Assembly: GCF_003600645.1 (NCBI RefSeq)
Contig: NZ_CP032482.1
Coordinates: 930,001 to 994,000, forward strand
Length of the DNA: 64,000 nt
Direction: 5' to 3'
DNA from: Yersinia rochesterensis
GTDB lineage: Bacteria > Pseudomonadota > Gammaproteobacteria > Enterobacterales > Enterobacteriaceae
Shown piece by piece: positions 16,113-34,979 of this stretch. The translations under genes and the position numbers were made by a program. The notes beneath the pieces were generated by a model. That model saw only the letters and a list, made by a program, of their open reading frames with translations, had not been told where the DNA came from and ran no database searches. Position 1 is the stretch's first letter, and each line of letters starts with the position of its first letter.

Positions 16113-16129
16113 GCATCATTTTCTAATTC

Positions 16130-16158
16130 GACATGCGGATTTTTCCGCATGTCTTTTT
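16130..16158 (+). terminator. terminator/attenuator after the major pilin gene
   Basis: Perfect 10-base arms GACATGCGGA and TCCGCATGTC with a TTTT loop and a following T-run. It lies between the major pilin gene and the rest of the operon, so partial read-through would set a high ratio of major pilin to usher and minor subunits. Confidence 0.92.
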
Positions 16159-16197
16159 CTCTTGAGAAAGATACGTGCTGGATGAGTTAGGTGATTT

Positions 16198-16743: not shown

Positions 16744-16748
16744 TTTCA

Positions 16749-19310: not shown

Positions 19311-19409
19311 AAAGCTTGGGTAATGAACCTGCGGATAACCGCGGGTTCTAATAAGAGAAAATATTCGGTGCCACCAGGTTCTGACAAAATTAATTCGAAG
19401 GAAAAAGTA

Positions 19410-20156
19410 ATGAAATTGAATAACAAACTGCGTATCACCACGATTTTGGTGACGGCACTTATGACTCAGCAAGCAACAGCAGCGATTGCACTGGATAGAA
19501 CCCGGGCCATTCTTAATGGCGGCGATAAGTCCATTAGCTTGAATATCAGCAACCAGAATAAGGAATTGCCTTATCTGGCGCAGGGTTGGATTGAAGATGA
19601 GCAGGGTAACAAGATCAATTCACCATTGACGGTGGTTCCACCGGTTCAGCGGGTAGAACCCGGTGCAATGAGTCAGTTAAAAATACAGACATTGCCGGCA
19701 GTGAGTCAGTTACCGCAAGACCGGGAAACCGTGTTCTATTTTAACTTGCGTGAAATTCCACCGCGCTCGGACAAGCCCAATACTTTGCAAATTGCTTTGC
19801 AAACGCGCATCAAACTTTTCTACCGCCCAGTGGGCATCGTGCCCCAAAAGGCCGACATGTCGACACCTTGGCAGGAGAAGTTACAGCTGACTCGTCAGGG
19901 CGATAGTTATCAGGTTAATAACCCGACACCGTATTACATCACATTGGTCGATGCCAGTGAGAGCAAAACCGGGAAAACAGCTGCGGGCTTCAAGCCACTG
20001 ATGATTGCGCCAAAAGCGCAGGGTATGTTGGAAGTCAGTGCCGCCGCATTGGGTAGTAAACCAGTGCTGACTTATGTCAATGATTTCGGTGGCCGGCCAA
20101 AACTGATATTTGGCTGCACGGGTAGCACCTGTTCTGTGGTTGAAAGCATCAAGTAA
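19410..20156 (+). CDS. periplasmic fimbrial chaperone (PapD/MrpD family)
   Basis: 248 residues from ATG 19410, with GAAGGA upstream and a signal peptide ending TQQATAA. The G1 and F1 motifs of PapD-type chaperones are present: IALDRTRAILNGGDKSISLNISN at the N-terminus and ETVFYFNLREIPPRS, with the pilin-anchoring Arg in LDRTR and Lys in TRIKLFYRP. The short F1-G1 loop indicates an FGS chaperone that assembles thick pili. It folds the pilins in the periplasm and delivers them to the usher encoded just upstream. Confidence 0.92.
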   Translation: MKLNNKLRITTILVTALMTQQATAAIALDRTRAILNGGDKSISLNISNQNKELPYLAQGWIEDEQGNKINSPLTVVPPVQRVEPGAMSQLKIQTLPAVSQLPQDRETVFYFNLREIPPRSDKPNTLQIALQTRIKLFYRPVGIVPQKADMSTPWQEKLQLTRQGDSYQVNNPTPYYITLVDASESKTGKTAAGFKPLMIAPKAQGMLEVSAAALGSKPVLTYVNDFGGRPKLIFGCTGSTCSVVESIK

Positions 20157-20227
20157 CGGCGTATTTCTGGGCGCTGCATAAGAAGACAGGGCGGATGTCA
20201 GGCTGAACAATGAATAAGGAATATGGG

Positions 20228-20785
20228 ATGACTGTTGTTTTTAGGGGAATAGTTACCCGGCTGACTCCGATGGCCATGATGCCCATCATTAAGATGACAG
20301 CCATTGTAGGGGCGGTGACCGCAGTGATGACATTATTGTTAAGCGGCTCTGCATGGGCGCTAACTAAGACTGCGACGGTCAATGTTTCGGTCACTATTTT
20401 TGCTGCACCGCCTTGTGAGATTAACAGCAACAACACGATTAACGTCAGTTTCGGCGATAGCGTCCTGACATCCAATATTGATGGAGTCAACTACAAGCAG
20501 CCGGTGAACTATACGCTGAACTGTACTGCGGCAGCATCTAATGCACTGAAAATAAGTATTAAGGGGAATGGTGCGACTTTTGATACCAGTCTCTTGAAAA
20601 CCAGCAATTCAGGTTTGGGGATCAAATTGATGCGCGATGGGCAGCCACTTGCACTTAACGCGACATCCAATTTTACCTATCCCAATGTTCCTGCATTGCA
20701 GGCGGTACTGATCAAACAAACAAATGCGACGTTGAGCACCGGCTATTTTTCCGGCACAGCGACTCTGGTTGTGGAGTATCAATAA
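20228..20785 (+). CDS. minor fimbrial subunit (PapE/F/K-like, MrpE position)
   Basis: 185 residues from ATG 20228, which has AAGGA seven bases upstream; ATG 20210 in the same frame lacks one. The mature part begins LTKTATVNVSVTIFAAPPCEIN and has the second Cys in YTLNCTAA, with the C-terminus SGTATLVVEYQ. This family (SFGDSV..SNIDGVNYKQPVNYTLNC pattern) includes PapE, PapF and PapK tip-fibrillum pilins. The stop overlaps the next gene's ATG by one base. Confidence 0.82.
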   Translation: MTVVFRGIVTRLTPMAMMPIIKMTAIVGAVTAVMTLLLSGSAWALTKTATVNVSVTIFAAPPCEINSNNTINVSFGDSVLTSNIDGVNYKQPVNYTLNCTAAASNALKISIKGNGATFDTSLLKTSNSGLGIKLMRDGQPLALNATSNFTYPNVPALQAVLIKQTNATLSTGYFSGTATLVVEYQ

Positions 20786-21279
20786 TGAATATCAACTCGC
20801 TTATTTCGCGCTGTTCAGTTGCAGTAGTGCTGGTTGTTGGTAGTACGTTGGCCTATGCGGACAACATGCTGTTCTCGGGTACATTAATTAATCCCGCTCC
20901 TTGTGTCATTAATGGGGGCAAAATTATTGATGTACCTTTTGGGGAAAATCTGGGTGTGAACAAGATTGATGGCATCAATTATACCCAAGCGGTGCCTTAC
21001 AGCATAATCTGTGAAACGGTCGGCAGCAGTTTGGAATTGGGTATCACGGTAGTGAGCGCATCTGTTGCTACATTTGATCCCGCAGCGATACAAACCAATG
21101 TTAGGGATTTGGGTGTCCGTATTCTAAAAAATGGCGTTTCTTTTCCGCTGAATACCCGTGTTGCCTATGACAAAAATAACCCGCCGGTACTGAAAGCCGT
21201 TCCTATTAAGGCGACGGGCGCAACATTAAGTGAAGGCAGTTTTGAGGCTACCGCCACGTTATTAGTGGATTATCAATAG
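20785..21279 (+). CDS. minor fimbrial subunit (PapF/K-like, MrpF position)
   Basis: 164 residues with a signal peptide ending LAYA. It shares with the preceding protein the layout PAPCVINGG, VPFGENLGVNKIDGINYTQAVPY and C-terminus ATATLLVDYQ, so the two look like divergent duplicates. Both belong to the tip-pilin type that links the rod to the adhesin. Starts on the TAATG overlap. Confidence 0.82.
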   Translation: MNINSLISRCSVAVVLVVGSTLAYADNMLFSGTLINPAPCVINGGKIIDVPFGENLGVNKIDGINYTQAVPYSIICETVGSSLELGITVVSASVATFDPAAIQTNVRDLGVRILKNGVSFPLNTRVAYDKNNPPVLKAVPIKATGATLSEGSFEATATLLVDYQ

Positions 21280-21285
21280 GATCAA

Positions 21286-21834
21286 ATGATGACTAATTTA
21301 AATCTGCTGATGCGCCGTGGGCGAACTATTTTAAGTATTCTGATTCTGAATATTTTTTGGGCTATACCTGCATCGGCTGCTGATAATATGCGTTTTCATG
21401 GCGCATTAGTTGCCGAACCTTGCACAATTCGCCCAGGTGATGAAGCCATTAGTTTGAATTTCGGTACGGTAGTCGACAAATATCTATATTCGAATCAGCG
21501 TACTTTGGGAAAACAATTCCAAATACACCTGGTTGATTGTGACATTAGTCTGGGTACCACGGCCAATATTAAGTTTACAGGGAATGATAATCTTAAATTA
21601 CCTGGGTTATTAGCCGTCGATGGTAATGATGTCGGAATAGCCATTGGTCTTGAAACATTGGCAGGGAAAGCTTTGCCCCTTAATCAGTCAAGTGATGATA
21701 TTGCGCTTGATACAGGTAACAACATTATTACCTTGAAAGCTTATGTTCAGGGTGAGCCAGATGCAATAACTCAACGCACGATTAAACGCGGTGAGTTCAG
21801 TGCCGTTGCAACATTTAATCTGCAATATTATTAA
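21286..21834 (+). CDS. minor fimbrial subunit (MrpG position)
   Basis: 182 residues with a signal peptide ending PASA. It belongs to the FimA-like pilin type: MRFHGALVAEPCTIRPGD, HLVDCDISLG, and SAVATFNLQYY at the end. It follows the previous gene by six bases, with AGG before tandem ATGs. It is closer to the major-pilin type than to the two preceding tip pilins, and probably acts as an adaptor between rod and tip. Confidence 0.8.
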   Translation: MMTNLNLLMRRGRTILSILILNIFWAIPASAADNMRFHGALVAEPCTIRPGDEAISLNFGTVVDKYLYSNQRTLGKQFQIHLVDCDISLGTTANIKFTGNDNLKLPGLLAVDGNDVGIAIGLETLAGKALPLNQSSDDIALDTGNNIITLKAYVQGEPDAITQRTIKRGEFSAVATFNLQYY

Positions 21835-21910
21835 TGGGTTCCCCCACTAATTTTATTTCAATAAGAATATTTCAATACTGAAATTTATTATCAACAGCTT
21901 AAATGCCGAT

Positions 21911-22759
21911 ATGCGGATAGAGACAATGGAACTTAAACGAATGACACAGCCTAATATGCGCTTAAGTAGTCAATATTTCTGGCTAATTGCTTGCGTGCTG
22001 TTTTTATTTCCACTTTATAGCCAGGCCAGTGCTTGGGTTTCGACACAAACGCGAGTAGGGCAACAATACCAAGGAACATTCTCTTGGCCGAGCGAAGAAA
22101 TGCAGGGGGTACTTTGTACTGCTGCATCTTGTTCTGTGGCGATATGTCACTACTCGACGGCGGCCAATGCTGAAATATGTGGTAACCCATCCAATGCCTT
22201 GACGCGAGTTATTGTTCCTCAAGGGGCAACGGCAGAGGTGATGAGAGCAGCCTTTATTGCTAAAAATGGGGTGTCGGGAAGTTGGGGTACTGTGACACCT
22301 GACCCATTGCGTGCGGCTGGTAGCTGCTTTGGTGTGATGTATTGGCAAGGTTCGAATGATAATAATACCAGTGGTAGGGTTATTCCCGGCTCTTATTGTG
22401 GCGCTGTTCCACCGACCCCGGAAACCTGTGAAATCACCGGTGATGTCTATATCAATTATGGTTCACTTAATCAGCAAAGTGTTGATGGTGCAATAAAAAG
22501 TGAGCCATTAAACATCAAATGCACAGTCAGAACATCGCTGAAATTAACTCTGGTAGGTAGCAAAAGTATCAACCTTGGACAAAGCGGTAAACTGACCTCA
22601 ACATTAAAAATGTCAGGGCAAGATCTATACAATGGTGTCACGATAAGCGCTGGTGTTGGGCAGACACCTTTCCCGATTGAATCAACACTTCATTCGGTGG
22701 GATTACCTGATGCGGGCACCTTTAGTGGTAGTGGAGTGGTTATTATGTCATACCTCTAA
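21911..22759 (+). CDS. fimbrial tip adhesin (MrpH-like two-domain)
   Basis: 282 residues from ATG 21911; ATGs at 21926 and 21941 are alternatives, and none has a strong ribosome site. A signal peptide (LIACVLFLFPLYSQASA) is followed by an N-terminal domain rich in Cys (residues to about 175: LCTAASCSVAICHYST, EICGN, SCFGVMYWQ, SYCGAVPP) and a C-terminal pilin domain (ETCEITGDVYINYGSLNQ, NIKCTV, ending VIMSYL). Length, last place in the operon and architecture match MrpH, whose lectin-like domain needs zinc; zinc ligands here were not verified. Receptor unknown. Confidence 0.78.
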   Translation: MRIETMELKRMTQPNMRLSSQYFWLIACVLFLFPLYSQASAWVSTQTRVGQQYQGTFSWPSEEMQGVLCTAASCSVAICHYSTAANAEICGNPSNALTRVIVPQGATAEVMRAAFIAKNGVSGSWGTVTPDPLRAAGSCFGVMYWQGSNDNNTSGRVIPGSYCGAVPPTPETCEITGDVYINYGSLNQQSVDGAIKSEPLNIKCTVRTSLKLTLVGSKSINLGQSGKLTSTLKMSGQDLYNGVTISAGVGQTPFPIESTLHSVGLPDAGTFSGSGVVIMSYL

Positions 22760-23086: not shown

Positions 23087-23275
23087 ATGAAAAAAATGAA
23101 CATGGCTGAAGCAAATACAATCGTTGGCGGTACTGGCGTAACTTGTAAAGATACTTACGAGTGGTTGTCAGGTAGCACTACTTTGACTTGCCAGGCTATT
23201 ACTACTTGTACTGACAAGCACGGTACAGTGACTAGCCGTACAGCTACAGCTACCAACGTTGCTAACTGCAAATAA
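23087..23275 (+). CDS. small secreted peptide precursor with double-glycine leader
   Basis: 62 residues with AAGGA ten bases before the ATG. The 15-residue leader MKKMNMAEANTIVGG fits the double-glycine rule: hydrophobic Met at -12, Glu at -8, Ile at -4, Gly at -2 and -1. The 47-residue product has Cys at 20, 35, 41 and 61 of the precursor, enough for two disulfides, and is rich in Thr (TCQAITTCTDKHGTVTSRTA). It resembles, from memory, the small enterobacterial proteins called DUF4762; this was not checked. The C39 peptidase-ABC exporter and the DsbA-like protein encoded downstream are natural partners for cleavage and disulfide formation. Activity (bacteriocin, toxin or signal) is unknown, and no obvious immunity gene was recognised. 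Confidence 0.8.
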   Translation: MKKMNMAEANTIVGGTGVTCKDTYEWLSGSTTLTCQAITTCTDKHGTVTSRTATATNVANCK

Positions 23276-23323
23276 GATATAAATTAAATATTCGTTAATT
23301 CTTATCGATATTTAAAAGTATCC

Positions 23324-23370
23324 CAGGTAAGTGCGGGAGGGATTTCTGTACTTGCCTGATTTATTTCTTT
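23324..23370 (+). terminator. leaky terminator between peptide and export/modification genes
   Basis: Arms CAGGTAAGT (23324-23332) and ACTTGCCTG (23350-23358) pair with one G-U, and a T-rich run follows. The long loop makes it modest. It would allow strong expression of the peptide with lower expression of the ten genes downstream, a layout common for secreted peptides. The rest of the 211-base gap shows nothing else clear. Confidence 0.55.
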
Positions 23371-23504
23371 AAATGTGTCACCGATGCTTAAATTCAAGAA
23401 TTTTCGCATTAACTGAGTGTTAGAAAGACTATTTCGTGGGCATAAATGTTATTTAATTCTGTTTATGTCTTACCTGAACTCTGATTGTGAATAGAACTGA
23501 ATCT

Positions 23505-24188
23505 ATGTCTACTGAAAAAAATATGTTTAGGAGTAAGGGATTTTTTATAGGCTACACACTGTTAGTTATCCTTATTTCTTCATTGATAACAACGGCCTAT
23601 TTCCACTATTTCGTTCTTAATCAGGATGAACAGGAAACCCTATTCGCTGTCAGCAGCAGTGAAGTTGAAAACAGCCCAATCAAAGACGATAAAACGATTA
23701 TCGAGATCTTCTCTTATGGCTGCCATTACTGCGCCATCAATGAAGAGAATGTGACCCAATTAGAAAACCGCATGCCAGAAGGGACGCGTTTTGTCCGCCT
23801 ACATATCAGCAGCGATAAAACCACCGGCTTGGGGCGTTTTGCACCTATTTTCGCGACCTTATCGGTCATGGGCATTGAACCGCAACATCGCCAAAGTGCT
23901 TACAAAGCGGTGCTTGAAGACAACATCGACCTGAGTGATAACAGCCAGCTCGAAACCTGGCTAAAAGCCAATGACATTGACGTTGCCAAATATCAGCAAG
24001 TGAGCCAGTCAGCTGAAGTGAAAGAGTTATTAGCTTATATGACGGCGGTAACCGCACATTACAAAGTTGACGCCACTCCGACCTTTATTGTCGGTAAAAA
24101 ATGGATAGCGCTACAGGATCGTCAATTCCCGGCGTTCTCAGACCATCTCTTGTCATTACTCGAGCACGATAAGGCGCTGGAGAAATAA
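23505..24188 (+). CDS. membrane-anchored DsbA-like thiol oxidoreductase
   Basis: 227 residues from ATG 23505; GTG 23487 and ATG 23523 are possible starts. One N-terminal transmembrane helix (FFIGYTLLVILISSLITTAYF) anchors a periplasmic thioredoxin fold. The active site is IFSYGCHYCAINE (CHYC, compare CPHC of DsbA) and the cis-Pro loop is DATPTFIVG. DsbA-type enzymes insert disulfides into exported proteins. Its place directly after a four-cysteine peptide suggests that the peptide is its client; that is inference. It ends at an ATG overlap with the next gene. Confidence 0.85.
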   Translation: MSTEKNMFRSKGFFIGYTLLVILISSLITTAYFHYFVLNQDEQETLFAVSSSEVENSPIKDDKTIIEIFSYGCHYCAINEENVTQLENRMPEGTRFVRLHISSDKTTGLGRFAPIFATLSVMGIEPQHRQSAYKAVLEDNIDLSDNSQLETWLKANDIDVAKYQQVSQSAEVKELLAYMTAVTAHYKVDATPTFIVGKKWIALQDRQFPAFSDHLLSLLEHDKALEK

Positions 24189-25144
24189 TGAGGCTGTTAG
24201 CCGTATGGAGCTATTTCGCCTGGAGAAATCAGCTCGACAAACTGGCGTTTAGTGGGCGCTTACTCGCCCGCTGGCAGGGAAAAATAGCTATCTGGCTGTT
24301 GCGGCACGGTGATTATCGTTTCTTATTGATGCTCGGCGCTTTGCGCCGGGCTTTAGGTTTGGTTTCACGGCATCAGAAAAATCTGGCGCGGGTGGCGGCG
24401 GCGAATAGCCAGTGTTTATTGGGAAGCCACAATCGCCCATCGGTACAGAATTTTATTCGCACGGCACAGCGCCGTCAGGTGTTAGAGCTGGCCGCAACTT
24501 ATGGTCAAAATCGGCGAATTTTAGCTCAGTTAGCGGCCTGTACTGAGCAGCTAGATAGCCAGGTGAGTGCGCTACATGAGGCCGGTTCGCCGGTTATTCT
24601 CGCGCCGCTGCACATGGTTTCTGATGTGCTCGCGGGCATGGTGGGCGCGGCGGCTTATCCGGGGCAGGCCACCGTGGTGGTTTCAGCCAGTGCCGAGGCT
24701 TATCAAGAGCAGGCGCGGCAAATGGGTGGAGTGAATATTTCCTATTGTTCTATCCATGCAGACAGCCGAGCCATCGCCGGTAACTTGATGGATGCCATCA
24801 TGGAAGCCGCCGAACATAAGCGGAATATTATGATTTTTCCGGATATTACGCCGGATTACACCGTCAATAACCAGCCAGCAGAAACGGCAAAAATGTCCTG
24901 CCAGTTGTTTAACCGCCCTGCCAATTTGCACAGCGGGATTATTCGCCTTGCCAGAGCATTGTCAGCGCAGGTGGTTTTTTATTATCTGTATTACGACAAA
25001 GAAATAAAAATTCATATTTATCCTGCGTTTAGTGCGCGGGAAATAAAAAGTAAATTACCTGAATTGATTGAAACATCAATGACGCAGCATCCGCAAGATT
25101 GGCTGTTATGGCACTCACATTCATTATTTTTTATTAATGAATAA
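24188..25144 (+). CDS. LpxL/HtrB-like acyltransferase
   Basis: 318 residues. The central part, SPVILAPLHMVSDVLAGMVG (His142, Asp146), resembles the active-site region of lipid A late acyltransferases, but the spacing is H-x3-D rather than the usual H-x4-D/E. IMIFPDITPDYTVNNQ and the C-terminal WLLWHSHSLFF also recall LpxL/LpxM. These enzymes move an acyl chain from acyl-ACP to an acceptor at the inner membrane. Here a dedicated ACP, ketosynthase, dehydratase and ketoreductase are encoded in the same operon, so the donor is likely their product. The acceptor could be the peptide or a lipid; this is not known. It starts on the stop codon of the DsbA-like gene. Confidence 0.7.
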   Translation: MRLLAVWSYFAWRNQLDKLAFSGRLLARWQGKIAIWLLRHGDYRFLLMLGALRRALGLVSRHQKNLARVAAANSQCLLGSHNRPSVQNFIRTAQRRQVLELAATYGQNRRILAQLAACTEQLDSQVSALHEAGSPVILAPLHMVSDVLAGMVGAAAYPGQATVVVSASAEAYQEQARQMGGVNISYCSIHADSRAIAGNLMDAIMEAAEHKRNIMIFPDITPDYTVNNQPAETAKMSCQLFNRPANLHSGIIRLARALSAQVVFYYLYYDKEIKIHIYPAFSAREIKSKLPELIETSMTQHPQDWLLWHSHSLFFINE

Positions 25145-25169
25145 TGTCACTTACAAAGAATAGTAGAAA

Positions 25170-27320
25170 ATGGAAAAGATAATCCCAACGTTAGTTTTTC
25201 AAAGCGAAACCAATGAGTGTGGTTTGGCCTGTATTGCGATGCTGGCACAGACGCAAGGCATTAACGCACCACTGGAAAGCTTACGGGAGCGCTATCCTGC
25301 CTCTGCACACGGCACGTCACTGGCTACGCTTTGTACTATTTTATCTGAGTTGGCCATACCGGCTTATCCGGTGGTATTTGAACATCAGGAATTGTCGGCT
25401 TTACCGCTACCGGCCATTTTGCACTATGGCGCAAACCATTATGTCTTGCTCGCCTACCGTAAAGGCAATTACGTCTGTGTCATGAACCCGGCTATCGGGC
25501 AGCAATTATTGCCGATGGATGCATTAAAAGCAGAAATCAGCGGCTACGCACTGGTGCTTGACTCAGAAACACCTGCGGACCCTGAAGCGGCGAAGAAGAT
25601 TGAACACAGCAAGCGGCTCAGTGCGCTCGACTGCATGAGTTTGAAAGAAACCGCCAGTGTTCGGGGTATTTACTGGCTGATGACGCTGGCATTTCTTATC
25701 TCCCTGACACTGTTTATTATGCCGACCATGGTCAGTAGCGCCATTAATGACGTGTTTTCTTCGGCGGGCGATAAAGATTTCCCTTATTTCTATTTTCTCC
25801 TGGCGTTTGTGGTGTCCACTTCACTCGCTTTTTGCGTGCGATACATCACCGAGCGTTATATCAAACACTTTGTGGTGCTTAACAGCGTCGCCGGTTTCTC
25901 CCGCTTACTAAGTCACTCGCTTAACTTCTTTGATAAGCGAGCGCCGGGTGACATCTTCAGCCGATTCTCGAACTGGCAGATGGCCGCAACCCAAAAAATA
26001 GAGCTGGATAACGGCCTGCGTACCGACTGGATAATCGGTGCCATCGCGCTGGCAGTGATGTGCTATATGAGCCCACTGTTGGCGATGGTGTCTGCTATCG
26101 GCGTTATGTTGATGGGGCTTATCAGTATTTGGGCCATCTATCGTGACCGCTATTACACTCAGCAGTTACAGGTGAAAAGTGCTGAGCAAAGTGATTTTAT
26201 TCTGGAAACCATTCAAGGTTTTTCCACCATTAAATCTGCCGGTTTATCCAGCCAACGCCAAGGGATGTTTGCGGGCCTTGCGCTGTCATTGTTCACGGCG
26301 TTACAGAAAAAGAAAATCTACGATCAGGTTAAAAATAGCCTGTATCAGCTGATTGGCAGTCTGGAAATGGTGTTCTTTATGCTGCTGGCTTTGCCATTGT
26401 TGAAGCAGGGGACACTGAGCTTGGGCGAATTCTTTGCTTACAGTTTCGTGCGCGAGATTTTCACCTCGTACATCACCAAAATTTTCTACGCTATTTTGCA
26501 AAAAAACCAGTTGCACGTCATTGATATCCGCGCGCGTGACCTGTTCCCTGCCGGGCAGTCAACGCCGTCGGAGAAGAGTTCAGCAATCCCAACCGCGCCG
26601 CCCACATTTGCACATAAGTTGGTTTATCAGAATATTCGTTTTGCCTACGACGCCAGCCAGCCGGTATTGCGCGATTTGTCGTTGTCACTGACACGCGGGC
26701 AAAGTGTGGCGATCATCGGTGAGTCCGGTGCCGGGAAAAGTACCTTGCTGAAAGTGATGGCGGGATTGATGCCGCCACAACAAGGGCAGGTATTGGTCGA
26801 TGGCGAAGCTGTCGATTTCCAGCAGGCCCATGCGCTGTTTTTCCTGCAAAGTCAGGAAGACATTCTGTTTAATGCCTCGGTATTACAAAACATCACTTTG
26901 TTTGATGGGAATCTGGACACCAATAAACTTCAACGTATCGAGCGCTCATTACAAGGGCTGCAATTAACGTCAGTTATCAATAAGTTGCCAGGCGGCCTCA
27001 GTGCGCTGGTGCGTGAAAGCCACGCCGCACTCTCTTTGGGACAACGCCAGCGGTTGTTACTGGCCCGCGCCATGTACAGCGATTGCCCGGTTTTGGTGCT
27101 GGATGAACCCACCGCCAATCTGGACGAAGACACCGCCCAGCAGGTGATGCAGGCTTTGTTGGCCCATTGCCGTGAATATCAGAAAACATTGATAACGGTG
27201 ACCCACAGTGAAAGTGTCTTGCCGCTGTTTGATAAGGTTGTCCGCTTGGATGATGGCCAGTTGGCACATTTTACTCAGCCAGCGACGTCAAATCGCCTGA
27301 CACCTGCGGCGGTTAACTGA
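25170..27320 (+). CDS. C39 peptidase-containing ABC exporter
   Basis: 716 residues, the usual layout of bacteriocin exporters. Residues 1-125 form a C39 peptidase: Gln11, Cys17 (QSETNECGLACIAML) and His90 (GANHYVLL) are present, but the third catalytic position is Asn106 (MNPAIG) where Asp is usual. Six transmembrane segments follow at about 165-460. The ATPase has Walker A GESGAGKST near 517, signature LSLGQRQR (not LSGGQ) near 620, Walker B VLVLDEPTANLD and H-loop VTHSE. It should remove the double-glycine leader and export the peptide. It is encoded 25 bases after the acyltransferase. Confidence 0.92.
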   Translation: MEKIIPTLVFQSETNECGLACIAMLAQTQGINAPLESLRERYPASAHGTSLATLCTILSELAIPAYPVVFEHQELSALPLPAILHYGANHYVLLAYRKGNYVCVMNPAIGQQLLPMDALKAEISGYALVLDSETPADPEAAKKIEHSKRLSALDCMSLKETASVRGIYWLMTLAFLISLTLFIMPTMVSSAINDVFSSAGDKDFPYFYFLLAFVVSTSLAFCVRYITERYIKHFVVLNSVAGFSRLLSHSLNFFDKRAPGDIFSRFSNWQMAATQKIELDNGLRTDWIIGAIALAVMCYMSPLLAMVSAIGVMLMGLISIWAIYRDRYYTQQLQVKSAEQSDFILETIQGFSTIKSAGLSSQRQGMFAGLALSLFTALQKKKIYDQVKNSLYQLIGSLEMVFFMLLALPLLKQGTLSLGEFFAYSFVREIFTSYITKIFYAILQKNQLHVIDIRARDLFPAGQSTPSEKSSAIPTAPPTFAHKLVYQNIRFAYDASQPVLRDLSLSLTRGQSVAIIGESGAGKSTLLKVMAGLMPPQQGQVLVDGEAVDFQQAHALFFLQSQEDILFNASVLQNITLFDGNLDTNKLQRIERSLQGLQLTSVINKLPGGLSALVRESHAALSLGQRQRLLLARAMYSDCPVLVLDEPTANLDEDTAQQVMQALLAHCREYQKTLITVTHSESVLPLFDKVVRLDDGQLAHFTQPATSNRLTPAAVN

Positions 27321-28504
27321 TGCGTATCACTATGACGAACAAGAAACTGCGTTTATCGCTGGCATTACTGTTGTTGCTGGTCATCGGCGGCGGGATTGCG
27401 CTGTCATTATCGGGCAATCAGCAGGATGCCCCGCAGCTCACCGAAACCATTGGGCGCGGTGATATTGAAAAGTACGTCATGGCGACCGGCAGTTTAAAAC
27501 CGTCATTACAGGTCAATGTGGGCGCGCAGGTTAACGGGCAGTTAACCAAACTTTATGTCAAACAGGGCGACCGCGTGACCCGTGGTCAGCTGTTGGCGGA
27601 GATTGACCCGACCTTGCAGCAGAATGAATTGCGCAAGTCAGAAGCCGAATTACAAAGTGCGCAGGCGCAAAAACAAGTGGCTCAAGCTCTGCTACGCCAA
27701 TATCAGTTGGAGTTGCGCCGTCAGCAAACATTGCTCGCGGAAAACGCGGGCGTGAAAAGTACGCTAGAGAAAGCGCAGGCGCAATACGAGAGTCAGGTAG
27801 CACAATTACGTGTTAACGAAGCTTTGATTGAGCAAAGTCAGGTCGCACGGGAAACGGCAAAAGCTAATTTAGCTTTTACTCGGATTATGGCGCCGATTGA
27901 CGGCGAAGTGTTGGGCATCGTCACCAAAGAGGGGCAAACCATCGTTTCCTCACAGACAGCCCCGACCATTCTGGTGTTGGCGAATGTCGATACCATGACG
28001 GTCAACACCCGCATTTCAGAAACCGACATTCTTAAAGTCAGTGTTGGGCAGCCATTGTGGTTCTATGTGGTGGCTGACCCCGAGCGCCGCTATGAAAGCC
28101 AGATGGGGGCTATCCAGGCGGCCTCTACCGACAGTTTGCGCGAAGACAGCACCGTGCCACAGACAAACCAGCAACCTTCAGCGGTTTATTACAATGGCAT
28201 ATTCAATATCGCCAACAGTGAGCGGTTATTACGCACCTCAATGACTGCGCAAGTATTCATCATTACCGCACAGGCAAAAAATGTGCTGCGGGTGCCGCTG
28301 GCGGCTCTTGGTGAGCAACAGTCGGATAAACGCTATCGCGTCGTTGTGAGTCAAAATGGCGGCAGTAAAGGCCAGAAAACCACGGTGCGTTGGGTGTTGC
28401 TCGGCTTGCGTAATGACCAATATGCCGAAGTAAAAGAGGGGCTGGAACCGGGTGAACAGGTCGTGCTGACGGGGATGCCGTCGGGAGCTAACAATGCAGA
28501 TTAA
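27320..28504 (+). CDS. MacA-like periplasmic adaptor (HlyD/RND family)
   Basis: 394 residues with one N-terminal membrane anchor (LALLLLLVIGGGIALSL). The order lipoyl half (GDIEKYVMATGSLKP, VNVGAQVNGQLTKLYVKQGDRV), long alpha hairpin (about residues 90-180, Gln/Ala/Glu-rich), second lipoyl half (TRIMAPIDGEVLGIVTKEGQTI) and beta-barrel is that of MacA. MacA joins MacB to an outer-membrane channel. It begins on the exporter stop codon and overlaps the MacB-like gene by 11 bases, so it most likely serves MacB rather than the C39 exporter, though both are possible. Confidence 0.9.
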   Translation: MRITMTNKKLRLSLALLLLLVIGGGIALSLSGNQQDAPQLTETIGRGDIEKYVMATGSLKPSLQVNVGAQVNGQLTKLYVKQGDRVTRGQLLAEIDPTLQQNELRKSEAELQSAQAQKQVAQALLRQYQLELRRQQTLLAENAGVKSTLEKAQAQYESQVAQLRVNEALIEQSQVARETAKANLAFTRIMAPIDGEVLGIVTKEGQTIVSSQTAPTILVLANVDTMTVNTRISETDILKVSVGQPLWFYVVADPERRYESQMGAIQAASTDSLREDSTVPQTNQQPSAVYYNGIFNIANSERLLRTSMTAQVFIITAQAKNVLRVPLAALGEQQSDKRYRVVVSQNGGSKGQKTTVRWVLLGLRNDQYAEVKEGLEPGEQVVLTGMPSGANNAD

Positions 28505-30470
28505 TGCTGTTCATACCGCTGATGCTAACCGCAACCCATTGATTCAACTCAAGGGGATTTATCGTCATTTTACGTCCGGCACAGAGTCGGTGGCGGTGCT
28601 TAAGGATATTTCGCTGTCAATTCACAGTGGCGAAATGGTGGCGATTATTGGGGCTTCCGGCTCGGGTAAATCGACGCTGATGAATATCATCGGCTGTCTG
28701 GATAAACCGACGCAGGGCGAGATGTCAATCCACAACATCCCGACGCGGCAGGCCAGCAGTGAACAGTTGGCGCAATTACGCAGCCAATACATTGGTTTTA
28801 TTTTTCAGCGCTATCATCTGATGCCGTATCTCACGGCAATGGAGAATGTGGTGATCCCGGCACTTTATACCGCGATGACCACCGCCGAACGTCAGGAGCG
28901 CGCAGCTTATTTGTTACGCCGTCTGGGGCTGGGCCAGCATTTGTTGCACAAACCGGCACAGTTGTCGGGCGGGCAACAGCAGCGGGTGAGTATTGCCCGC
29001 GCGCTGATGAATGGTGCCGGGATTATTCTGGCCGATGAGCCGACCGGCGCACTCGACAGCGCCAGCGGGCAGGAGCTGATGGGCATTTTGCACGGCCTAC
29101 ACCAGTCTGGCCACACCATTATTATCGTGACTCATGACCGCAATATCGCCAATCAGGCGCAGCGTATCATCGAGATTAGTGACGGTGAAATCATTGCAGA
29201 TCGCAATAATGAGGCTATCGGCACAACCGCCATTCACGCCGCGTTACCTAACCCGGTTGCCACGGGCCGCCCACACTGGTGGTTGAGTGTGAGAGAAGCT
29301 ATCAAGATGGCGTGGCGCGCCCTACTGGGTCACCGAATTCGCGCCTTTTTATCTATGCTGGGCATCATTATCGGTATTTCGTCGGTGGTTTCTTCCATGG
29401 CGGTCGGGGAAGGTGCTCGTCAGGAAATCCTGAGTGAAATCAGCCAGCTGGGTGTCAGTAACATGGAAATTCGCCCAGGACTTGGCTGGGATAAGCCGCG
29501 CCCTGATTTTGAGCGCGCCCTCAGTGTGGCGGATGTCGATTTACTCAGCCGCCAGCCCTATGTCGAGAACCTGTCGCCAGTGGTCAGTAAAACGGTGACG
29601 GCGATTCATGGGGACAAACAAGTGATGATTTTGCTCTCCGGGGTCGGCCAGGGTTTCTTCAAGGCGAGCGGGCTGAATATTATGACCGGCGATAGCCTTA
29701 GACAACAGCATGTTAATGCCCGCGAGCCGGTGGTTATTTTGCAACCCGAGCTTAGCGATACCCTGTTTGCTGCCGGGCAAAATCCTATTGGCGAAATTGT
29801 CCAACTGGACGGCATCCCCTTGCGGGTGATTGGTGTTGCTAAGCGCGCCGGTTCGTCCTATGGCGGATTATTGACGGCCTGGATGCCCTATACCTCTCTC
29901 TCTGAGCGTATTTCGGGTGATATTCCGCTGGAATCTATAGCTGTGCAGATTGGTGAAAACTACAGCTTGAATGAAGTGCAGCGCGATATCGAAAAGGTGC
30001 TGGACAGGGCGCATGGTCAGCGGGACTTTTTCATTCTGAGCAATGACCAGATGAACCGAGCGATTCAGAAAACCTCTGATTCGATGACGCTGCTGATCAC
30101 CTCCATCGCCGCGATTTCACTGCTGGTGGGTGGGGTGGGCGTGATGAATATCATGTTGGTGTCGGTGACTGAGCGCACCCATGAAATCGGTATCCGCCTG
30201 TCGGTAGGTGCCCGCCCGAGTGACATCATGACCCAGTTCCTGATTGAGGCGGTGGTTATCTGCACCCTCGGTGGCTTGATTGGTATTGTTGGCTCCGCGT
30301 TGGCGGGGGTGGTTTTCTCGTGGGTTACCCAAGAATTCACCATGATTTTCACCTGGCCGCCGTTAGTGATGGCGTGCAGTTTCTCTGCACTTATCGGGTT
30401 AGGTTTTGGCTTTTTCCCAGCGCGCAATGCCGCTCGTTTGCACCCCACTGAGGCATTGGCACGAGAATGA
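28494..30470 (+). CDS. MacB-like ABC efflux pump
   Basis: 658 residues, close to MacB length. The N-terminal ATPase has Walker A GASGSGKSTLMNI near 58, signature [15 protein letters not shown] near 160, Walker B IILADEPTGALD and H-loop VTHDRN. A first transmembrane helix (about 285-305) precedes a large periplasmic domain, and three C-terminal helices form the FtsX core (MTLLITSIAAISLLVGGVGVMNIMLVSVTERTHEIGIR in part). MacB drives a periplasmic molecule through a MacA-outer membrane channel, using ATP hydrolysis in the cytoplasm. Known substrates include heat-stable enterotoxin and siderophores; here the oxidised peptide is a candidate. Confidence 0.93.
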   Translation: MQINAVHTADANRNPLIQLKGIYRHFTSGTESVAVLKDISLSIHSGEMVAIIGASGSGKSTLMNIIGCLDKPTQGEMSIHNIPTRQASSEQLAQLRSQYIGFIFQRYHLMPYLTAMENVVIPALYTAMTTAERQERAAYLLRRLGLGQHLLHKPAQLSGGQQQRVSIARALMNGAGIILADEPTGALDSASGQELMGILHGLHQSGHTIIIVTHDRNIANQAQRIIEISDGEIIADRNNEAIGTTAIHAALPNPVATGRPHWWLSVREAIKMAWRALLGHRIRAFLSMLGIIIGISSVVSSMAVGEGARQEILSEISQLGVSNMEIRPGLGWDKPRPDFERALSVADVDLLSRQPYVENLSPVVSKTVTAIHGDKQVMILLSGVGQGFFKASGLNIMTGDSLRQQHVNAREPVVILQPELSDTLFAAGQNPIGEIVQLDGIPLRVIGVAKRAGSSYGGLLTAWMPYTSLSERISGDIPLESIAVQIGENYSLNEVQRDIEKVLDRAHGQRDFFILSNDQMNRAIQKTSDSMTLLITSIAAISLLVGGVGVMNIMLVSVTERTHEIGIRLSVGARPSDIMTQFLIEAVVICTLGGLIGIVGSALAGVVFSWVTQEFTMIFTWPPLVMACSFSALIGLGFGFFPARNAARLHPTEALARE

Positions 30471-31885
30471 AAAGATTAATTAACACCATGTTATTTAAAA
30501 GCTTAGTGCTAATGACCAGCTTGGTGCTAGCGGGCTGCGGCGCATTACTGAAAAGTGACTATCAGCGCCCGATGGTGTCAATCCCCGACGAATGGCGGAT
30601 TAAAGACAGTGGCAGCAGTTACCTGCATCACAGTGTGCACTGGTGGGAAAATTTCGACGACCCACAATTGTCAGAAAGCATCAGCCGCATGTTGGTCAGT
30701 AATAATGACTTGACCACTGCGGGCTTGAAGTTACAGCAAGCGCGTTTGACGGCTGGGCTGACCAATACCAATATGACCCCGAATGTCACCTTGACTGGAG
30801 GGGGGAGTAACACCCGATCTCTGAATGAGAATACCGAGCCGCGTGAAAACTATAACACCTCGTTTGGGTTGAGTTACGAGCTGGATTTGTGGGGCAAACT
30901 GGCCCGCGCTCGTGAGCAATCCGCCTGGTTGGTCAATGCCACTGAACAGGATCGGCAGGTCACTGCCCTGTTATTGATTGGAACCACGGCCGATCTTTAT
31001 TGGCAGATTGCGAAATTTAACCAGCAGTTAGGTTACCAACAGACGGCGCTGGCTATCTCGCAAGACACTCTCAAAATTGTGAGCGCGCGACTGAAGGCGG
31101 GGGATGCCAGTGAAATCGAGCTGTTGCAGGCGCAGCAAGCTTTGCTGGACAGGCAAAATCAGTATCAAAATATCGAGCAGCAGCGCGAAGTTGCGCGTAA
31201 CGCCATGGCGTTGCTGTTTAACCGCGCCCCTAATTATCGTCAGGCGGAGCGCCAGTCATTGGATTTACAGCAACAGGTGCCGATTGCCGCCAGTTTACCG
31301 CTAGAAGTTATTGCCCAGCGCCCGGATGTACAGGCTGCCGAGTGGCGTTTGCGCGCCGCTTTAGCCGGGTCTGATGTGGCAAAACTGAATTTCTACCCGA
31401 CACTTTCGCTGGGGGCCGCATTGGACGCCGGTAACTCGGTGTTTTCGCAATGGTTTAGTAACCCGAGCCGGACACTCAGTGTCAACAGTGCGCTGCCTTT
31501 CTTGCAGTGGAATACGGTGCAGCTCACCATCGACCAGTCAAAGCTGGATGTGAAATTAGCCGCTGTCGATTTCCGCACCAAAGTCTACAGCGCACTGAAA
31601 GATGTCGACGACGCCATGATAGGGCGGTTGAGTTATCAGCAACAAAAACAGAATCAGTGGCAGAACCTGCAACTCAGCCAGCGTCGGCTTAGCCTGACGA
31701 ACAGCCAGTATCAAGCAGGTGCCGTTTCATTTCAGACCTTACTGGATGCGCAGGATGCCCTGCTGACCAGTGAAACCAGTTTGCTCGAACTTCAATATAA
31801 CTATCTGAATGCCACCATGAAATTGTGGTTAGCATTAGGTGGCGGTGTTGATAACAGCAGGGACAGTAAAGGAATTAAATCATGA
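30467..31885 (+). CDS. outer-membrane efflux lipoprotein (OprM/NodT family)
   Basis: 472 residues. The signal peptide ends in lipobox LAGC (about residue 24), so it is a lipoprotein of the OprM/CusC type rather than TolC. The repeated hairpin structure is visible: WWENFDDPQLSESISRML, SYELDLWGKLARAREQS, then the repeat QRPDVQAAEWRLRAALAGSDVAK and DVDDAMIGRLSYQQQ. It provides the outer-membrane conduit for the adaptor and pump genes directly upstream. It starts inside the last codon of the MacB-like gene and ends inside the start of the ketosynthase gene, both 4-base overlaps. Confidence 0.92.
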   Translation: MKRLINTMLFKSLVLMTSLVLAGCGALLKSDYQRPMVSIPDEWRIKDSGSSYLHHSVHWWENFDDPQLSESISRMLVSNNDLTTAGLKLQQARLTAGLTNTNMTPNVTLTGGGSNTRSLNENTEPRENYNTSFGLSYELDLWGKLARAREQSAWLVNATEQDRQVTALLLIGTTADLYWQIAKFNQQLGYQQTALAISQDTLKIVSARLKAGDASEIELLQAQQALLDRQNQYQNIEQQREVARNAMALLFNRAPNYRQAERQSLDLQQQVPIAASLPLEVIAQRPDVQAAEWRLRAALAGSDVAKLNFYPTLSLGAALDAGNSVFSQWFSNPSRTLSVNSALPFLQWNTVQLTIDQSKLDVKLAAVDFRTKVYSALKDVDDAMIGRLSYQQQKQNQWQNLQLSQRRLSLTNSQYQAGAVSFQTLLDAQDALLTSETSLLELQYNYLNATMKLWLALGGGVDNSRDSKGIKS

Positions 31886-33132
31886 CGAACACAGTTAAAC
31901 AGCGCCGGGTTGTTGTCACCGGTTACGGCTCGGTAACTCCTCTGGGCATGACTGCGCAGCAAAGCTGGGCCGCCATTATGGATAACAAATTAGGTTATCG
32001 CTATTACGATAAATCCGAGCAGGGCATTAAATCGCGCTTTTTTGGCCTGTTGGATGCGGAACCCAATTTGAAGTCAGTTCCAGCGGCCATACGCCGCCGC
32101 CTGCCGCGCTATGCCCGGTTGGCATTGGCCGCTGCCCGCGAAGCGATGCAGATGGCGTTCGCTGAGAAATCTGTTGCAGATTATTATGATTTGCTCGATT
32201 GCGGCACCATTATCGGCAGCGGCTGGGCCGGGCAGGATGAAACCCACGATAACTATGAAGGCTATCTGGAAACCGGGCTGGGCACGCCGTTCGGCTGTTT
32301 CTTGTCGATGCCGAATGCCGGTACCGCCGCCTGTAGTTTGTACTGGGGATTGCGCGGCTATCAGAATTCCCCGATTGCTGCCTGTGCGACCGGCACCATT
32401 GCGATCGGCGATGCATTTGAAATCATCCGTAGCGGGCGAGCATCAATGATGTTGGCGGGAGCGGGTGAATCTCTACGCAGTGATGCAGCAGTGTGGAATA
32501 TCGATATTTTAGGTGCATTGGCGCGCGAGCAAGAAGATGCCAGCAAAGCCAGCTGCCCATTCAGTTTGGACCGAAACGGCTTTGTATTATCCGAAGGCGC
32601 GGCGGTATTGTGTCTGGAAGAGCGGGAAGGGGCGATTGCTCGTGGTGCCAACATTCTCGGCGAAATTAAAGGTTACGGTAACTATTCCGATGCCTTTGAT
32701 TTCACTGCACCGGCGGAAGACAGGGTTGCTCGGGTGAAAACTATTCAGCATGCCTTGCAGCAAGCGGGTTTGAGCGCCGACGAGATTGATTACGTGAACT
32801 TGCACGGCACCTCGACTCAGCTTAATGACCTGAATGAAACCCAATCCATTAAACAGGCCTTTGGCGCTGCGGCTTATACTACGCCACTGTCCAGCACCAA
32901 ATCCTATTCCGGCCATTTGATTGCGGCGGCGGGCAGCTTTGAATCCATTATTTGTCTGCAAGCGTTGGCGCATCAGATAATGCCCGCGACTTGTAATCTG
33001 AAAAATGCTGACCCGCAATGTGACCTTGATTACATCAGCGAAGGGCATCGGCCAAAAGTTTTGCGCAACACGCTAAACCTGAGTTTCGGCTTTGGTGGCG
33101 CGAATGCCGCATTGGTTATCGGGTTGGATTAA
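31882..33132 (+). CDS. beta-ketoacyl-ACP synthase (FabF-like)
   Basis: 416 residues of thiolase fold. Catalytic Cys168 is in SPIAACATGTIAIGDA (ACATG where FabF has ACATS), and the two catalytic histidines are in NLHGTST and YSGHLIAAAG. FSLDRNGFVLSEGAAVLCLE and the C-terminal SFGFGGANAALV match FabF/FabB. It condenses acyl chains with malonyl-ACP. Its occurrence in an export operon with its own ACP, dehydratase and ketoreductase suggests a specialised acyl chain, as in aryl polyene or peptide-acylation loci. No malonyl transferase or enoyl reductase is encoded, so these would come from primary metabolism or be dispensable. Confidence 0.92.
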   Translation: MTNTVKQRRVVVTGYGSVTPLGMTAQQSWAAIMDNKLGYRYYDKSEQGIKSRFFGLLDAEPNLKSVPAAIRRRLPRYARLALAAAREAMQMAFAEKSVADYYDLLDCGTIIGSGWAGQDETHDNYEGYLETGLGTPFGCFLSMPNAGTAACSLYWGLRGYQNSPIAACATGTIAIGDAFEIIRSGRASMMLAGAGESLRSDAAVWNIDILGALAREQEDASKASCPFSLDRNGFVLSEGAAVLCLEEREGAIARGANILGEIKGYGNYSDAFDFTAPAEDRVARVKTIQHALQQAGLSADEIDYVNLHGTSTQLNDLNETQSIKQAFGAAAYTTPLSSTKSYSGHLIAAAGSFESIICLQALAHQIMPATCNLKNADPQCDLDYISEGHRPKVLRNTLNLSFGFGGANAALVIGLD

Positions 33133-33134
33133 GC

Positions 33135-33977
33135 ATGACTGTTAACACGACGTTTAACTCGATTTTTAACTACAACTATAACTATAACCTCAGTGATGCG
33201 GAGCGTTGGGCGGAGTTTTCCGGCGATTACAACCCGATCCATTTTGATCTGCAACATGCACAGCATTTGGGGCAGGAACAACTGACTGTCCACGGGATGC
33301 GCGCCATGCTGGATATCAAGTATCAGCTCAGCACGGCGTTATTGCCGATATTGCCGCCAGTGGAGTTTCTACGTTTTAACGCCCGCTTACGTCAACCGGT
33401 ACAGTGCCATATGCCGTATCAGCTACAAGTCAGTCAAATGCCAGAGCAGGTGAGTGGCAATCTGATTGATATTAGCAGCGGTGAGAATTGCTTTAACGGC
33501 AAGCTGCGCAGTGCGCCCGCACTGGTACAAACTGACAACGAACAGTGGGCATCTTTGTCTGCGGACGAGGTTTTCCAGTCAAGCCAGCAATTCCTGGGTG
33601 ACGCATCACAACCGGCTGAATGCTGGGGATTTTTTGATGCCCTGCTATTTAAATTGCTGGTTGCCGCGCCGCAAACACTGGCCACCGCCAAACAGGTATT
33701 ACCGGGGATTGAGGCGGAAACTTTGATTGATGTTTTCAAGTATGTGCCGGTTATCCAAACTCACCATGATGTGCATTTCAGTGCAGATTTACTGCGCATC
33801 AATAACCCGAATCTATTTGTCCGCAGTGCATTGCACTACGCCATCGAGCCGACACTGATTGTCGGCAACCCGACTGATGGCTGGGTATTGCGCGCGGCTA
33901 TTGCGGCCCGTTCCGACTTAGGGCCATTAATTACCACAGCTGTAACATTGAAAACGTGGCCGTTAGCCGCGCATTAA
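33135..33977 (+). CDS. MaoC-like hot-dog dehydratase
   Basis: 280 residues. The first half has the hydratase-2 motif SGDYNPIHFD with LTVHGMRAML, the catalytic Asp/His signature of R-specific enoyl hydratases and 3-hydroxyacyl dehydratases. The second half (from about 150) may be a second hot-dog fold without the motif. It probably dehydrates or hydrates the 3-hydroxyacyl-ACP made by the ketoreductase. The N-terminus carries an odd Asn-Tyr alternation (NYNYNYN) from a small tandem repeat at about 33169-33189. It follows the ketosynthase after two bases. Confidence 0.78.
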   Translation: MTVNTTFNSIFNYNYNYNLSDAERWAEFSGDYNPIHFDLQHAQHLGQEQLTVHGMRAMLDIKYQLSTALLPILPPVEFLRFNARLRQPVQCHMPYQLQVSQMPEQVSGNLIDISSGENCFNGKLRSAPALVQTDNEQWASLSADEVFQSSQQFLGDASQPAECWGFFDALLFKLLVAAPQTLATAKQVLPGIEAETLIDVFKYVPVIQTHHDVHFSADLLRINNPNLFVRSALHYAIEPTLIVGNPTDGWVLRAAIAARSDLGPLITTAVTLKTWPLAAH

Positions 33978-33991
33978 AAAAGGATAAGATC

Positions 33992-34240
33992 ATGGAAAAG
34001 TATCAACACGTTTATGACACTGTATGTGAAATGTTGTGTGACGCCAAAGACTTAGAGATGTCTGCATTATCACCTGAAATGCCACTGCATCAGTTAAAAC
34101 TCGACAGTCTGGATTATGTCGAATTGATGGTGCTGGCAAAGCGCGAATTCGGCGCGACGCTGAATGCTGAAATGTTTATGGAAAATCCGGACATGACTTT
34201 AGGAGAGCTTTGCCAGAAGTTGGCCGAGCAAAAGAAATAA
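33992..34240 (+). CDS. acyl carrier protein
   Basis: 82 residues from ATG 33992, preceded by AAGGATAAGATC. The phosphopantetheine site is Ser39 in LKLDSLDYVEL, and the protein is short, acidic and predicted helical, as usual for ACP. It differs clearly from housekeeping AcpP (two Cys near the N-terminus, M-rich loop), so it is likely dedicated to this operon. It should carry the growing chain and donate it to the acyltransferase. It needs a phosphopantetheinyl transferase from elsewhere. Confidence 0.92.
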   Translation: MEKYQHVYDTVCEMLCDAKDLEMSALSPEMPLHQLKLDSLDYVELMVLAKREFGATLNAEMFMENPDMTLGELCQKLAEQKK

Positions 34241-34244
34241 TATT

Positions 34245-34979
34245 ATGAGCAAGCAATGGGTGTTAATTACCGGCGGCAGCCGTGGTATTGGTCGCGCTTT
34301 GGTCGAAGAACTGGCTAAAGAGTGGAATGTGGTGTTTACCTGGCGCAATGGTGAGCAACAGAGCCGCGATGTTATCGACAGCTGTGAAGGGTTGCCCGGT
34401 AAGGTGACCAGCTATCGCTGTGACGGCAGCAATGAAGCGGATGTCGATGCACTTGCGCCGCAATTGTTAGAGAAGTATGGCCCACCCGGCGCGGTAATTC
34501 ATAATGCCGGTATTACCGGTGACAGCTTACATATTCAGCAGAATGGTGATAACTGGCGCAATGTGCTGGATACTAATCTTAATGCGGTTTTCTACTGGAA
34601 TAAGCATGTTTTGCCAGCAATGATGATGCAGGGCGAAGGTGCCGTGTTGCTGATGTCCTCAGTGACCGCGATAAAAGGCAATATCGGCCAGAGCGCTTAT
34701 GGTGCCAGTAAAGCGGCGATGATTGGCCTTGGCCGCTCACTGGCGCTTGAGATGGGCCGCTTTAATATTCGAGTTAACTGCCTATTGCCGGGGGTGATCG
34801 ACAGCGATATGACGCGCGACATGCCTGCCGATGCCTTAAAAGGATTGCGTAAACAAATACCTTTACGGCGTTTGGGAAGTGCGCAGGAAGTTGCTCGTGT
34901 CAGTGCTTTTATGGTCGGTAATGATAGCCGCTATATGACTGGCCAGACCTTGGTGTTGGATGGTGGGTTAACGGCGTGA
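34245..34979 (+). CDS. 3-oxoacyl-ACP reductase (FabG-like)
   Basis: 244 residues of short-chain dehydrogenase. The NADPH-binding GGSRGIG, the NAG motif (IHNAGIT), Ser in LLMSSVTAIKG and the catalytic Tyr/Lys in SAYGASKAAM are intact, as is the C-terminal MTGQTLVLDGG. It reduces the 3-ketoacyl-ACP made by the ketosynthase. It is the last gene of the operon, four bases after the ACP stop. Without an enoyl reductase, the set would yield hydroxylated or unsaturated chains; this is inference. Confidence 0.93.
   Translation: MSKQWVLITGGSRGIGRALVEELAKEWNVVFTWRNGEQQSRDVIDSCEGLPGKVTSYRCDGSNEADVDALAPQLLEKYGPPGAVIHNAGITGDSLHIQQNGDNWRNVLDTNLNAVFYWNKHVLPAMMMQGEGAVLLMSSVTAIKGNIGQSAYGASKAAMIGLGRSLALEMGRFNIRVNCLLPGVIDSDMTRDMPADALKGLRKQIPLRRLGSAQEVARVSAFMVGNDSRYMTGQTLVLDGGLTA

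Follow-up and report, generated by a model that had tools for sequence, protein, structure and literature searches.

A fimbria-linked double-glycine peptide with putative acylation and two-step export genes in Yersinia rochesterensis and other Enterobacterales

In the Aat system, the closest described counterpart of the locus considered here, a small secreted protein, dispersin (Aap) or CexE, is exported from the periplasm and is served by its own acyltransferase (AatD in Aat), a MacAB-like pump, and an outer membrane (OM) protein (extracts of PMC7943197 and PMC7344145). Extracts of these and a related report call AatB and AatPC homologues of MacA and MacB (PMC7943197), tie the expression of dispersin and CexE to pilus regulators (PMC7344145), and state that dispersin overcomes the attraction between fimbriae and the cell surface (PMC7315649). 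Components of the same kinds recur in a set of eleven genes that lies on the plus strand, at 23087-34979, of a 64,000-nucleotide stretch of Yersinia rochesterensis DNA, referred to below as the window; a small peptide with a double-glycine leader is followed there by genes for a DsbA-like oxidoreductase, an LpxL-like acyltransferase, a C39-peptidase ABC exporter (C39-ABC), a MacAB-type pump with an OM channel, and fatty acid synthesis (Table 1). A search of the literature, covering open-licence papers, found no described system with this gene set. Throughout, L-numbers denote stretches, G-numbers denote genomes, and P-numbers denote precursors.

The Aat arrangement of a MacAB-like pump, a dedicated acyltransferase, and a secreted substrate is thus present in the locus, as an arrangement only; the components that define Aat membership, an Lnt-type AatD and a Sec-exported Aap/CexE homologue, are not those found here. 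Whereas the Aat substrate has a Sec signal and AatD acts on an N-terminal glycine, the peptide in the window has a double-glycine leader with a C39 exporter, and its putative acyltransferase has the LpxL/PatA fold. AatPABCD comes without dedicated fatty acid or DsbA genes, both of which are present here, and the Aat substrate, at about 10 to 12 kDa, is set apart from our 47-residue core by description and not by sequence comparison. The Aat substrate gene often lies apart from the pump genes, and the same is true of the Escherichia coli plasmids described below. This is a system that works like Aat without being a member of it, sharing its logic and built from unrelated parts. Class II microcins of the colicin V type have a 15-residue double-glycine leader, a C39-ABC exporter, and a small peptide with cysteines; leader and exporter are both found here, but the locus differs in its MacAB pump, acyltransferase, fatty acid genes, and fimbrial linkage, and an immunity gene was not seen in the window. 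In pyoverdine production, PvdE provides an inner membrane ABC step and an acylated intermediate matures in the periplasm, losing its chain before release. The PvdRT-OpmQ pump of that pathway is a MacAB-type second step like the one proposed here (extract of PMC8277102), as is the uptake of a small periplasmic peptide, heat-stable enterotoxin II, by MacAB-TolC (extracts of PMC8277102 and PMC7943197). Pyoverdine is a nonribosomal siderophore released without its acyl chain, unlike the ribosomal peptide of the window, and enterotoxin II, set apart without sequence comparison, differs in using a Sec leader and a housekeeping pump. Goadvionins, selidamides, and lipolanthines are acylated ribosomal peptides, some with fatty acid or polyketide genes beside the precursor; they resemble the proposed product in this acylation and differ from it in their GNAT-type or other acylation enzymes and in having neither MacAB nor fimbriae.

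We lean, by a small measure, toward a reading in which the locus yields a fimbria-linked peptide that is cut and exported by the C39-ABC transporter, oxidized by the DsbA-like protein, likely acylated by the LpxL-like enzyme, and released via the MacAB-type pump. An earlier interpretation made from the letters of the window (the sequence-only reading) had listed a precursor and ten packed genes and had proposed a microcin or signal. The parts list is borne out in full by the coordinates and by profile and sequence searches, and from the dsbA-like gene onward neighboring genes overlap or almost touch. The interpretation as a whole was partly supported: its proposals for export, oxidation, and a peptide-acyltransferase partnership held up, while "microcin or signal" is replaced by a secreted acyl-peptide linked to fimbriae, since the set is located within or next to chaperone-usher fimbrial loci, a link that had not been made although fimbrial genes sit directly upstream. 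The hairpin that follows the precursor gene is found at the matching place in other loci, with z values of -2.39 or lower in seven of the eight folded and -0.38 in L058, and would fit a precursor produced in excess over the machinery.

Table 1. Features of the peptide locus and the adjoining fimbrial cluster in the window
Feature	Position	Strand	Basis or value
Precursor peptide, 62 aa; 15-aa double-glycine leader and 47-aa core with four Cys and Lys-x-Gly (DUF4762)	23087..23275	+	
RNA hairpin between precursor and machinery genes, attenuator/terminator-like	23324..23358	+	Folding z -3.85
Membrane-anchored DsbA-like oxidoreductase, CHYC active site; start possibly 23505	23487..24188	+	Anchor seen in sequence
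Putative acyltransferase of LpxL/PatA fold, HX3D motif	24188..25144	+	Motif conservation and predicted fold
C39-peptidase ABC exporter	25170..27320	+	Profile/sequence searches
MacA-like periplasmic adaptor	27320..28504	+	Profile/sequence searches
MacB-like ABC transporter	28494..30470	+	E 1.8e-177 to solved MacB, nearly full length
Outer membrane channel (OEP family), lipoprotein-like N terminus	30467..31885	+	Profile; N terminus from sequence
FabF-like ketosynthase	31882..33132	+	ACATG and HGTST in 55/55
MaoC-like dehydratase	33135..33977	+	D-x-NP-[IV]-H in 52/52
Acyl carrier protein	33986..34240	+	Profile, alignment
FabG-like ketoreductase	34245..34979	+	Sequence search
Chaperone-usher fimbrial cluster: subunits, usher (16749-19310), chaperone (19323-20156), MrpH-like tip adhesin (21911-22759)	15588..22759	+	

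In the window, a chaperone-usher cluster whose tip adhesin is MrpH-like stands directly upstream of the set, and profile hits confirm the usher, the chaperone, one subunit, and the adhesin. Ushers were searched genome-wide in 36 set-bearing genomes, and one lay within 11 kb of a set in all 35 that could be tested (G074, with a 14-kb contig, was left out), against 2.85 expected at random placement with equal usher numbers, taken from per-genome tables; the distances were already known when the 11-kb limit was chosen, which counts against the reading, and the expectation assumes independent placement though the lineages are related, the computed P not being a real probability. Distances were computed for 31 of the 35 genomes and read from other searches for G162, G378, G296, and G387; the ushers of G296 and G387 came from tblastn matches, and that of G387 looks partial. 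In G253 and G035, outside these 36 genomes, an usher also occurs within 5 kb of the ketoreductase gene. Chance linkage was rejected on the count of 35 of 35.

Two layouts were found. In type A the fimbriae lie upstream of the precursor, and in type B they lie mostly downstream of the ketoreductase gene, together with a Phage_integrase-family recombinase, which we take to be FimB/E-like, and LuxR-type regulators; ushers of the two fimbrial types are about 30% identical. In the usher tree, the linked ushers fall into two clades, A with 23 rows (100/100) and B with 15 rows from 14 genes (100/99), both separate from six unlinked ushers of one Yersinia (G176, six of whose other ushers were taken in). 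The type B rows include the same G378 gene twice and an L110 row beside a precursor without machinery, and the G296 usher region (L111), which has no full frame, was excluded. The machinery tree, built without nine near-duplicate rows, the loci with short C39 or MacB frames (L007, L062, L104, and L080), and the degraded L045, places Yersinia machinery with that of type B, whereas Yersinia ushers group with type A. A single clade of all type A machinery was rejected (42 rows, LG+G4; log-likelihood difference of 164, p-AU of 3.7e-40) in an approximately unbiased (AU) test that was run after the grouping had been seen in the first tree, and this order of events also detracts from the case. The disagreement between the two trees led us to reject passive vertical linkage to a single fimbrial island. 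The system seems to have exchanged one fimbrial partner for another without giving up its association with fimbriae, an argument for a joint function.

The precursor exceeds the cut-off of the Pfam family DUF4762 (PF15959; 41.1 bits against 27), a family without assigned function. In an alignment of 64 rows, with relatives 29 to 94% identical to the window peptide, the leader Gly-Gly, Cys35, Cys41, Lys44, Gly46, and Cys61 are present in every row and Cys20 is present in 63; the constancy of the leader supports processing and export of the peptide by the C39-ABC transporter, as the sequence-only reading had it. An ordinary lipoprotein was rejected, the leader being of the double-glycine type and not of a Sec lipobox type. 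Apart from the cysteines, Lys44 and Gly46 are the sole invariant residues of the core, and a [DG]KxG motif is found in 15 of 16 tabulated precursors (the window's included, some with two cysteines, and that of L110 read to 62 residues only), with RKDG in L148. Because no other invariant residue of the core could form an acyl amide, the N terminus freed by cleavage aside, Lys44 is a candidate acyl acceptor. The core is predicted to form a three-stranded sheet (mean pLDDT of 80, pTM of 0.54). Tandem precursor pairs occur in L053, L054, L056, and L139; the last belongs to G337, which carries three sets plus further precursors, and, with no machinery in the 20 kb fetched, this pair would be processed in trans. 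The L050 precursor (G355), identical to P0148 of the mouse model organism Citrobacter rodentium, adjoins a chaperone-usher cluster, perhaps that of the Gcf fimbria.

When genome contigs were scanned with the LpxL-like protein, 15 loci were returned (ten from Yersinia, three from Serratia, and one each from Enterobacillus and Pluralibacter), and all eleven genes were matched in unchanged order in every one; the nearest among the loci returned was that of Yersinia thracica, at 97% over the LpxL-like protein. Rahnella and Erwinia tasmaniensis are also among the bacteria with the set (precursors P0160 and P0157). Family-wide, 45 of 392 genomes had a DUF4762 hit (above the cut-off in 40), from 26 of 154 genera, and the machinery was present at 37 of the 40 DUF4762 places fetched, with fragments in L045, the ketoreductase unmatched in L041, and maoC and the ketoreductase unmatched in L070. 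The other three places comprise a contig end (L057) and two machinery-distant precursors (L061, L067) whose genomes hold machinery elsewhere. The converse search, by alignment to the LpxL-like protein with one stretch per genome inspected, returned 47 of those 392 genomes, again in 26 of 154 genera, and both genes were found by search in 41. Six genomes with the LpxL-like gene gave no DUF4762 match: G253 has a four-cysteine precursor, G035 and G379 have a two-cysteine precursor, G267 and G270 have a two-cysteine double-glycine peptide ahead of macA, and inspection of G286 found no precursor. Co-occurrence of a precursor candidate with the LpxL-like gene in 46 of 47 genomes supports the postulated partnership of peptide and acyltransferase; both genes are absent from two of the six Yersinia genomes (G257, G380). 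Machinery without the peptide, the pattern that the earlier reading had set against itself, was seen in G286 (L133, L149) and on a Chimaeribacter plasmid (L080). These sets also have no DsbA-like match, a 64-residue open reading frame lying where the missing genes would stand, and the C39-ABC gene of the plasmid record is split, so that both sets are apparently decayed.

Plasmids of E. coli, Salmonella, Serratia marcescens, and Chimaeribacter carry the set, and on the inspected E. coli and Salmonella plasmids the precursor lies elsewhere on the plasmid, away from the machinery. With machinery matches counted at 80% or more of the query, machinery and precursor were found in the same 9 of 5,426 E. 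coli genomes and on the same nine replicons, and in PLSDB they share the same 12 plasmids (10 from E. coli and 2 from Salmonella), two Streptomyces precursor matches (E 0.5) being taken as chance. The sharing of plasmids by separated genes indicates that the machinery probably serves the peptide even in trans. The precursors of one E. coli plasmid and one Salmonella plasmid are near genes annotated as adhesin regulators, and the Salmonella one is also near an F4-type usher.

The LpxL-like protein falls below the curated cut-off of PF03279 (LpxL/HtrB; 19.3 bits against 22.3), a domain that is present in the precomputed annotation of some of its relatives, and its predicted fold matches LpxM/PatA; H142 and D146 are invariant in 46 rows, and HX3D is found in 46 of 46 and 55 of 55. 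Public records often name the enzyme of the window and its relatives "ABC transporter," a likely misannotation. The C39 exporter keeps the Cys and His, with Asn replacing the usual Asp. In two other families of the order, reduced relatives (G395, L150:3393-10269; G491, L156:2531-10248) carry a double-glycine peptide, an LpxL-like enzyme, C39-ABC, MacA, and MacB, with an OM channel in L156 only and a second similar precursor at 11166-11456 of that stretch; neither L150 nor L156 gave matches to the fatty acid genes. The minimal core is therefore the double-glycine peptide, the LpxL-like enzyme, C39-ABC, and MacAB, and since the fatty acid genes are unmatched beside it, the acyltransferase belongs to the peptide system and not only to the fatty acid genes. 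This, like the company that the peptide keeps with the acyltransferase in nearly all genomes, weakens an alternative in which the LpxL-like enzyme and the fatty acid genes produce or alter some separate lipid (surface lipid, lipopolysaccharide, or phospholipid) for export by MacAB, the peptide being exported unacylated. In favor of such a lipid, LpxL and PatA are known to acylate glycolipids, plasmid pE41 and genomes G267 and G270 keep the fatty acid genes alongside a different peptide, and MacAB-TolC is said in an extract of PMC8277102 to transport OM glycolipids and lipopeptides; we consider this explanation unlikely.

The action of the DsbA-like protein on the peptide, also part of the earlier proposal, finds support in a covariation of gene and cysteines. 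Five loci without a DsbA-like match (G035, G379, G267, G270, and pE41) all have two cysteines in the core, and tabulated precursors from loci with the gene have four or five. Beyond the family, G395 has a cysteine-free double-glycine peptide and G491 one with two cysteines in the part read, both without a DsbA match. One apparent exception weighs against the pattern: Salmonella plasmid L078 has a four-cysteine precursor and no intact DsbA-like frame, and a short frame at that place suggests a broken gene. Compared with Yersinia rohdei (L005) and Yersinia frederiksenii (L010), the window shows 93 to 95% DNA identity across precursor, gap, and dsbA and 73 to 90% in the other genes of the set. 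With the high identity limited to that segment, it looks like a cassette joining precursor and DsbA that was exchanged between species.

Such exchange, together with plasmid carriage and the combination of a 15-residue double-glycine leader, C39-ABC, and a small disulfide peptide, would also fit a class II microcin that kills competitors after unusual maturation, the fimbrial neighborhood reflecting ecological coincidence or coregulation. We find this more doubtful still, the explanation being weakened by the fimbrial linkage and by the lack of a visible immunity gene in the gaps of the window, where no open reading frame of at least 40 residues is listed between precursor and dsbA and the set ends with the ketoreductase gene, although short immunity proteins are possible and other loci were not systematically searched. 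The adaptor is, moreover, of the MacA type with MacB also present, and we know of no microcin with fimbrial linkage and a swap of partner. That the peptide is an unacylated fimbrial part or regulator (a capping, cross-linking, or assembly factor) would agree with the usher clades and linkage and with the DsbA-like proteins that occur in some fimbrial operons, but the likely OM route of its own, through MacAB and the channel and separate from the usher, and the pairing with two fimbrial types of such distant ushers make it highly improbable.

If the favored reading of a fimbria-linked, acylated peptide is correct, the ketosynthase, ketoreductase, MaoC-like dehydratase, and acyl carrier protein would make or tailor an acyl chain, which, with no enoyl reductase encoded within the set, may stay unsaturated or borrow the host enzyme. 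The LpxL-fold protein, expected to face the cytoplasm like LpxL, would move this chain onto the precursor, most likely at Lys44 or else at the N terminus freed by cleavage. The C39-ABC exporter, to judge from its family, would cut after Gly-Gly and deliver the core to the periplasm, where the anchored DsbA-like protein would form two disulfides, as the covariation suggests, and MacA, MacB, and the OM channel would lift the acyl-peptide across the OM. By analogy with dispersin and CexE, the product may coat the cell or its fimbriae, tuning fimbrial stand-off or sticking in an anticollapse role. Both the lipidation of the peptide and the use of MacAB as a second export step are plausible.

Several further points weigh against this scheme. 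No acylated product is known, and the acyl acceptor could be something other than the peptide; were acylation cytoplasmic, the C39 exporter would have to let the acyl chain through. The HX3D motif departs from the HX4(D/E) that we take to be the catalytic motif of LpxL, the invariant Lys44 could be structural, and the predicted core fold had no clear match in the fold comparison, which leaves a likeness to dispersin without structural backing. The fetched stretches of L074 (one of the three G337 sets), L138 (the second set of G070), L137/L152 (G327), L133/L149/L153 (G286), G267/G270, the E. coli plasmid operons, pE41, and the Chimaeribacter plasmid gave no usher match, nor did L012 and L013 within 10-kb flanks.

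A wider proposal, to which we give rather less than even credence, is that the locus represents a second, independently built class of lipopeptide secretion, in which an LpxL-fold enzyme with its own fatty acid synthase acylates an internal lysine of a double-glycine peptide that is oxidized, exported in two ABC-driven steps, and used as a surface or pilus coat, the system having been recruited repeatedly by different chaperone-usher fimbriae of Enterobacterales. Surface-clinging bacteria would then be coated in an undescribed way, and a second system with unrelated enzymes would amount to convergent evolution toward acyl-coated fimbriated cells. If true, DUF4762 would also gain a role, a protein acyltransferase would join the enzymes of LpxL fold, and a small secreted partner would be suggested for some chaperone-usher fimbriae. 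With one precursor, one acyltransferase, and one mass, the system is tractable.

Parts of the set, or genes resembling them, were also seen in other settings. On a Serratia proteamaculans plasmid (L082:7933-11828), similar ketosynthase, MaoC-like, and acyl carrier protein genes lie behind an RHS gene, and the annotation shows neither a peptide nor a pump in the vicinity. The chromosome of E. coli VTB97432v (L089:11998-14004) carries a remnant of the set, consisting of the 3' part of the ketosynthase gene and the dehydratase, acyl carrier protein, and ketoreductase genes, between insertion sequence fragments; it is followed by polysaccharide deacetylase, glycosyltransferase, phosphoethanolamine-transferase, and lpxM-annotated genes, and a deacetylase and a glycosyltransferase gene also follow the plasmid copy in L077.

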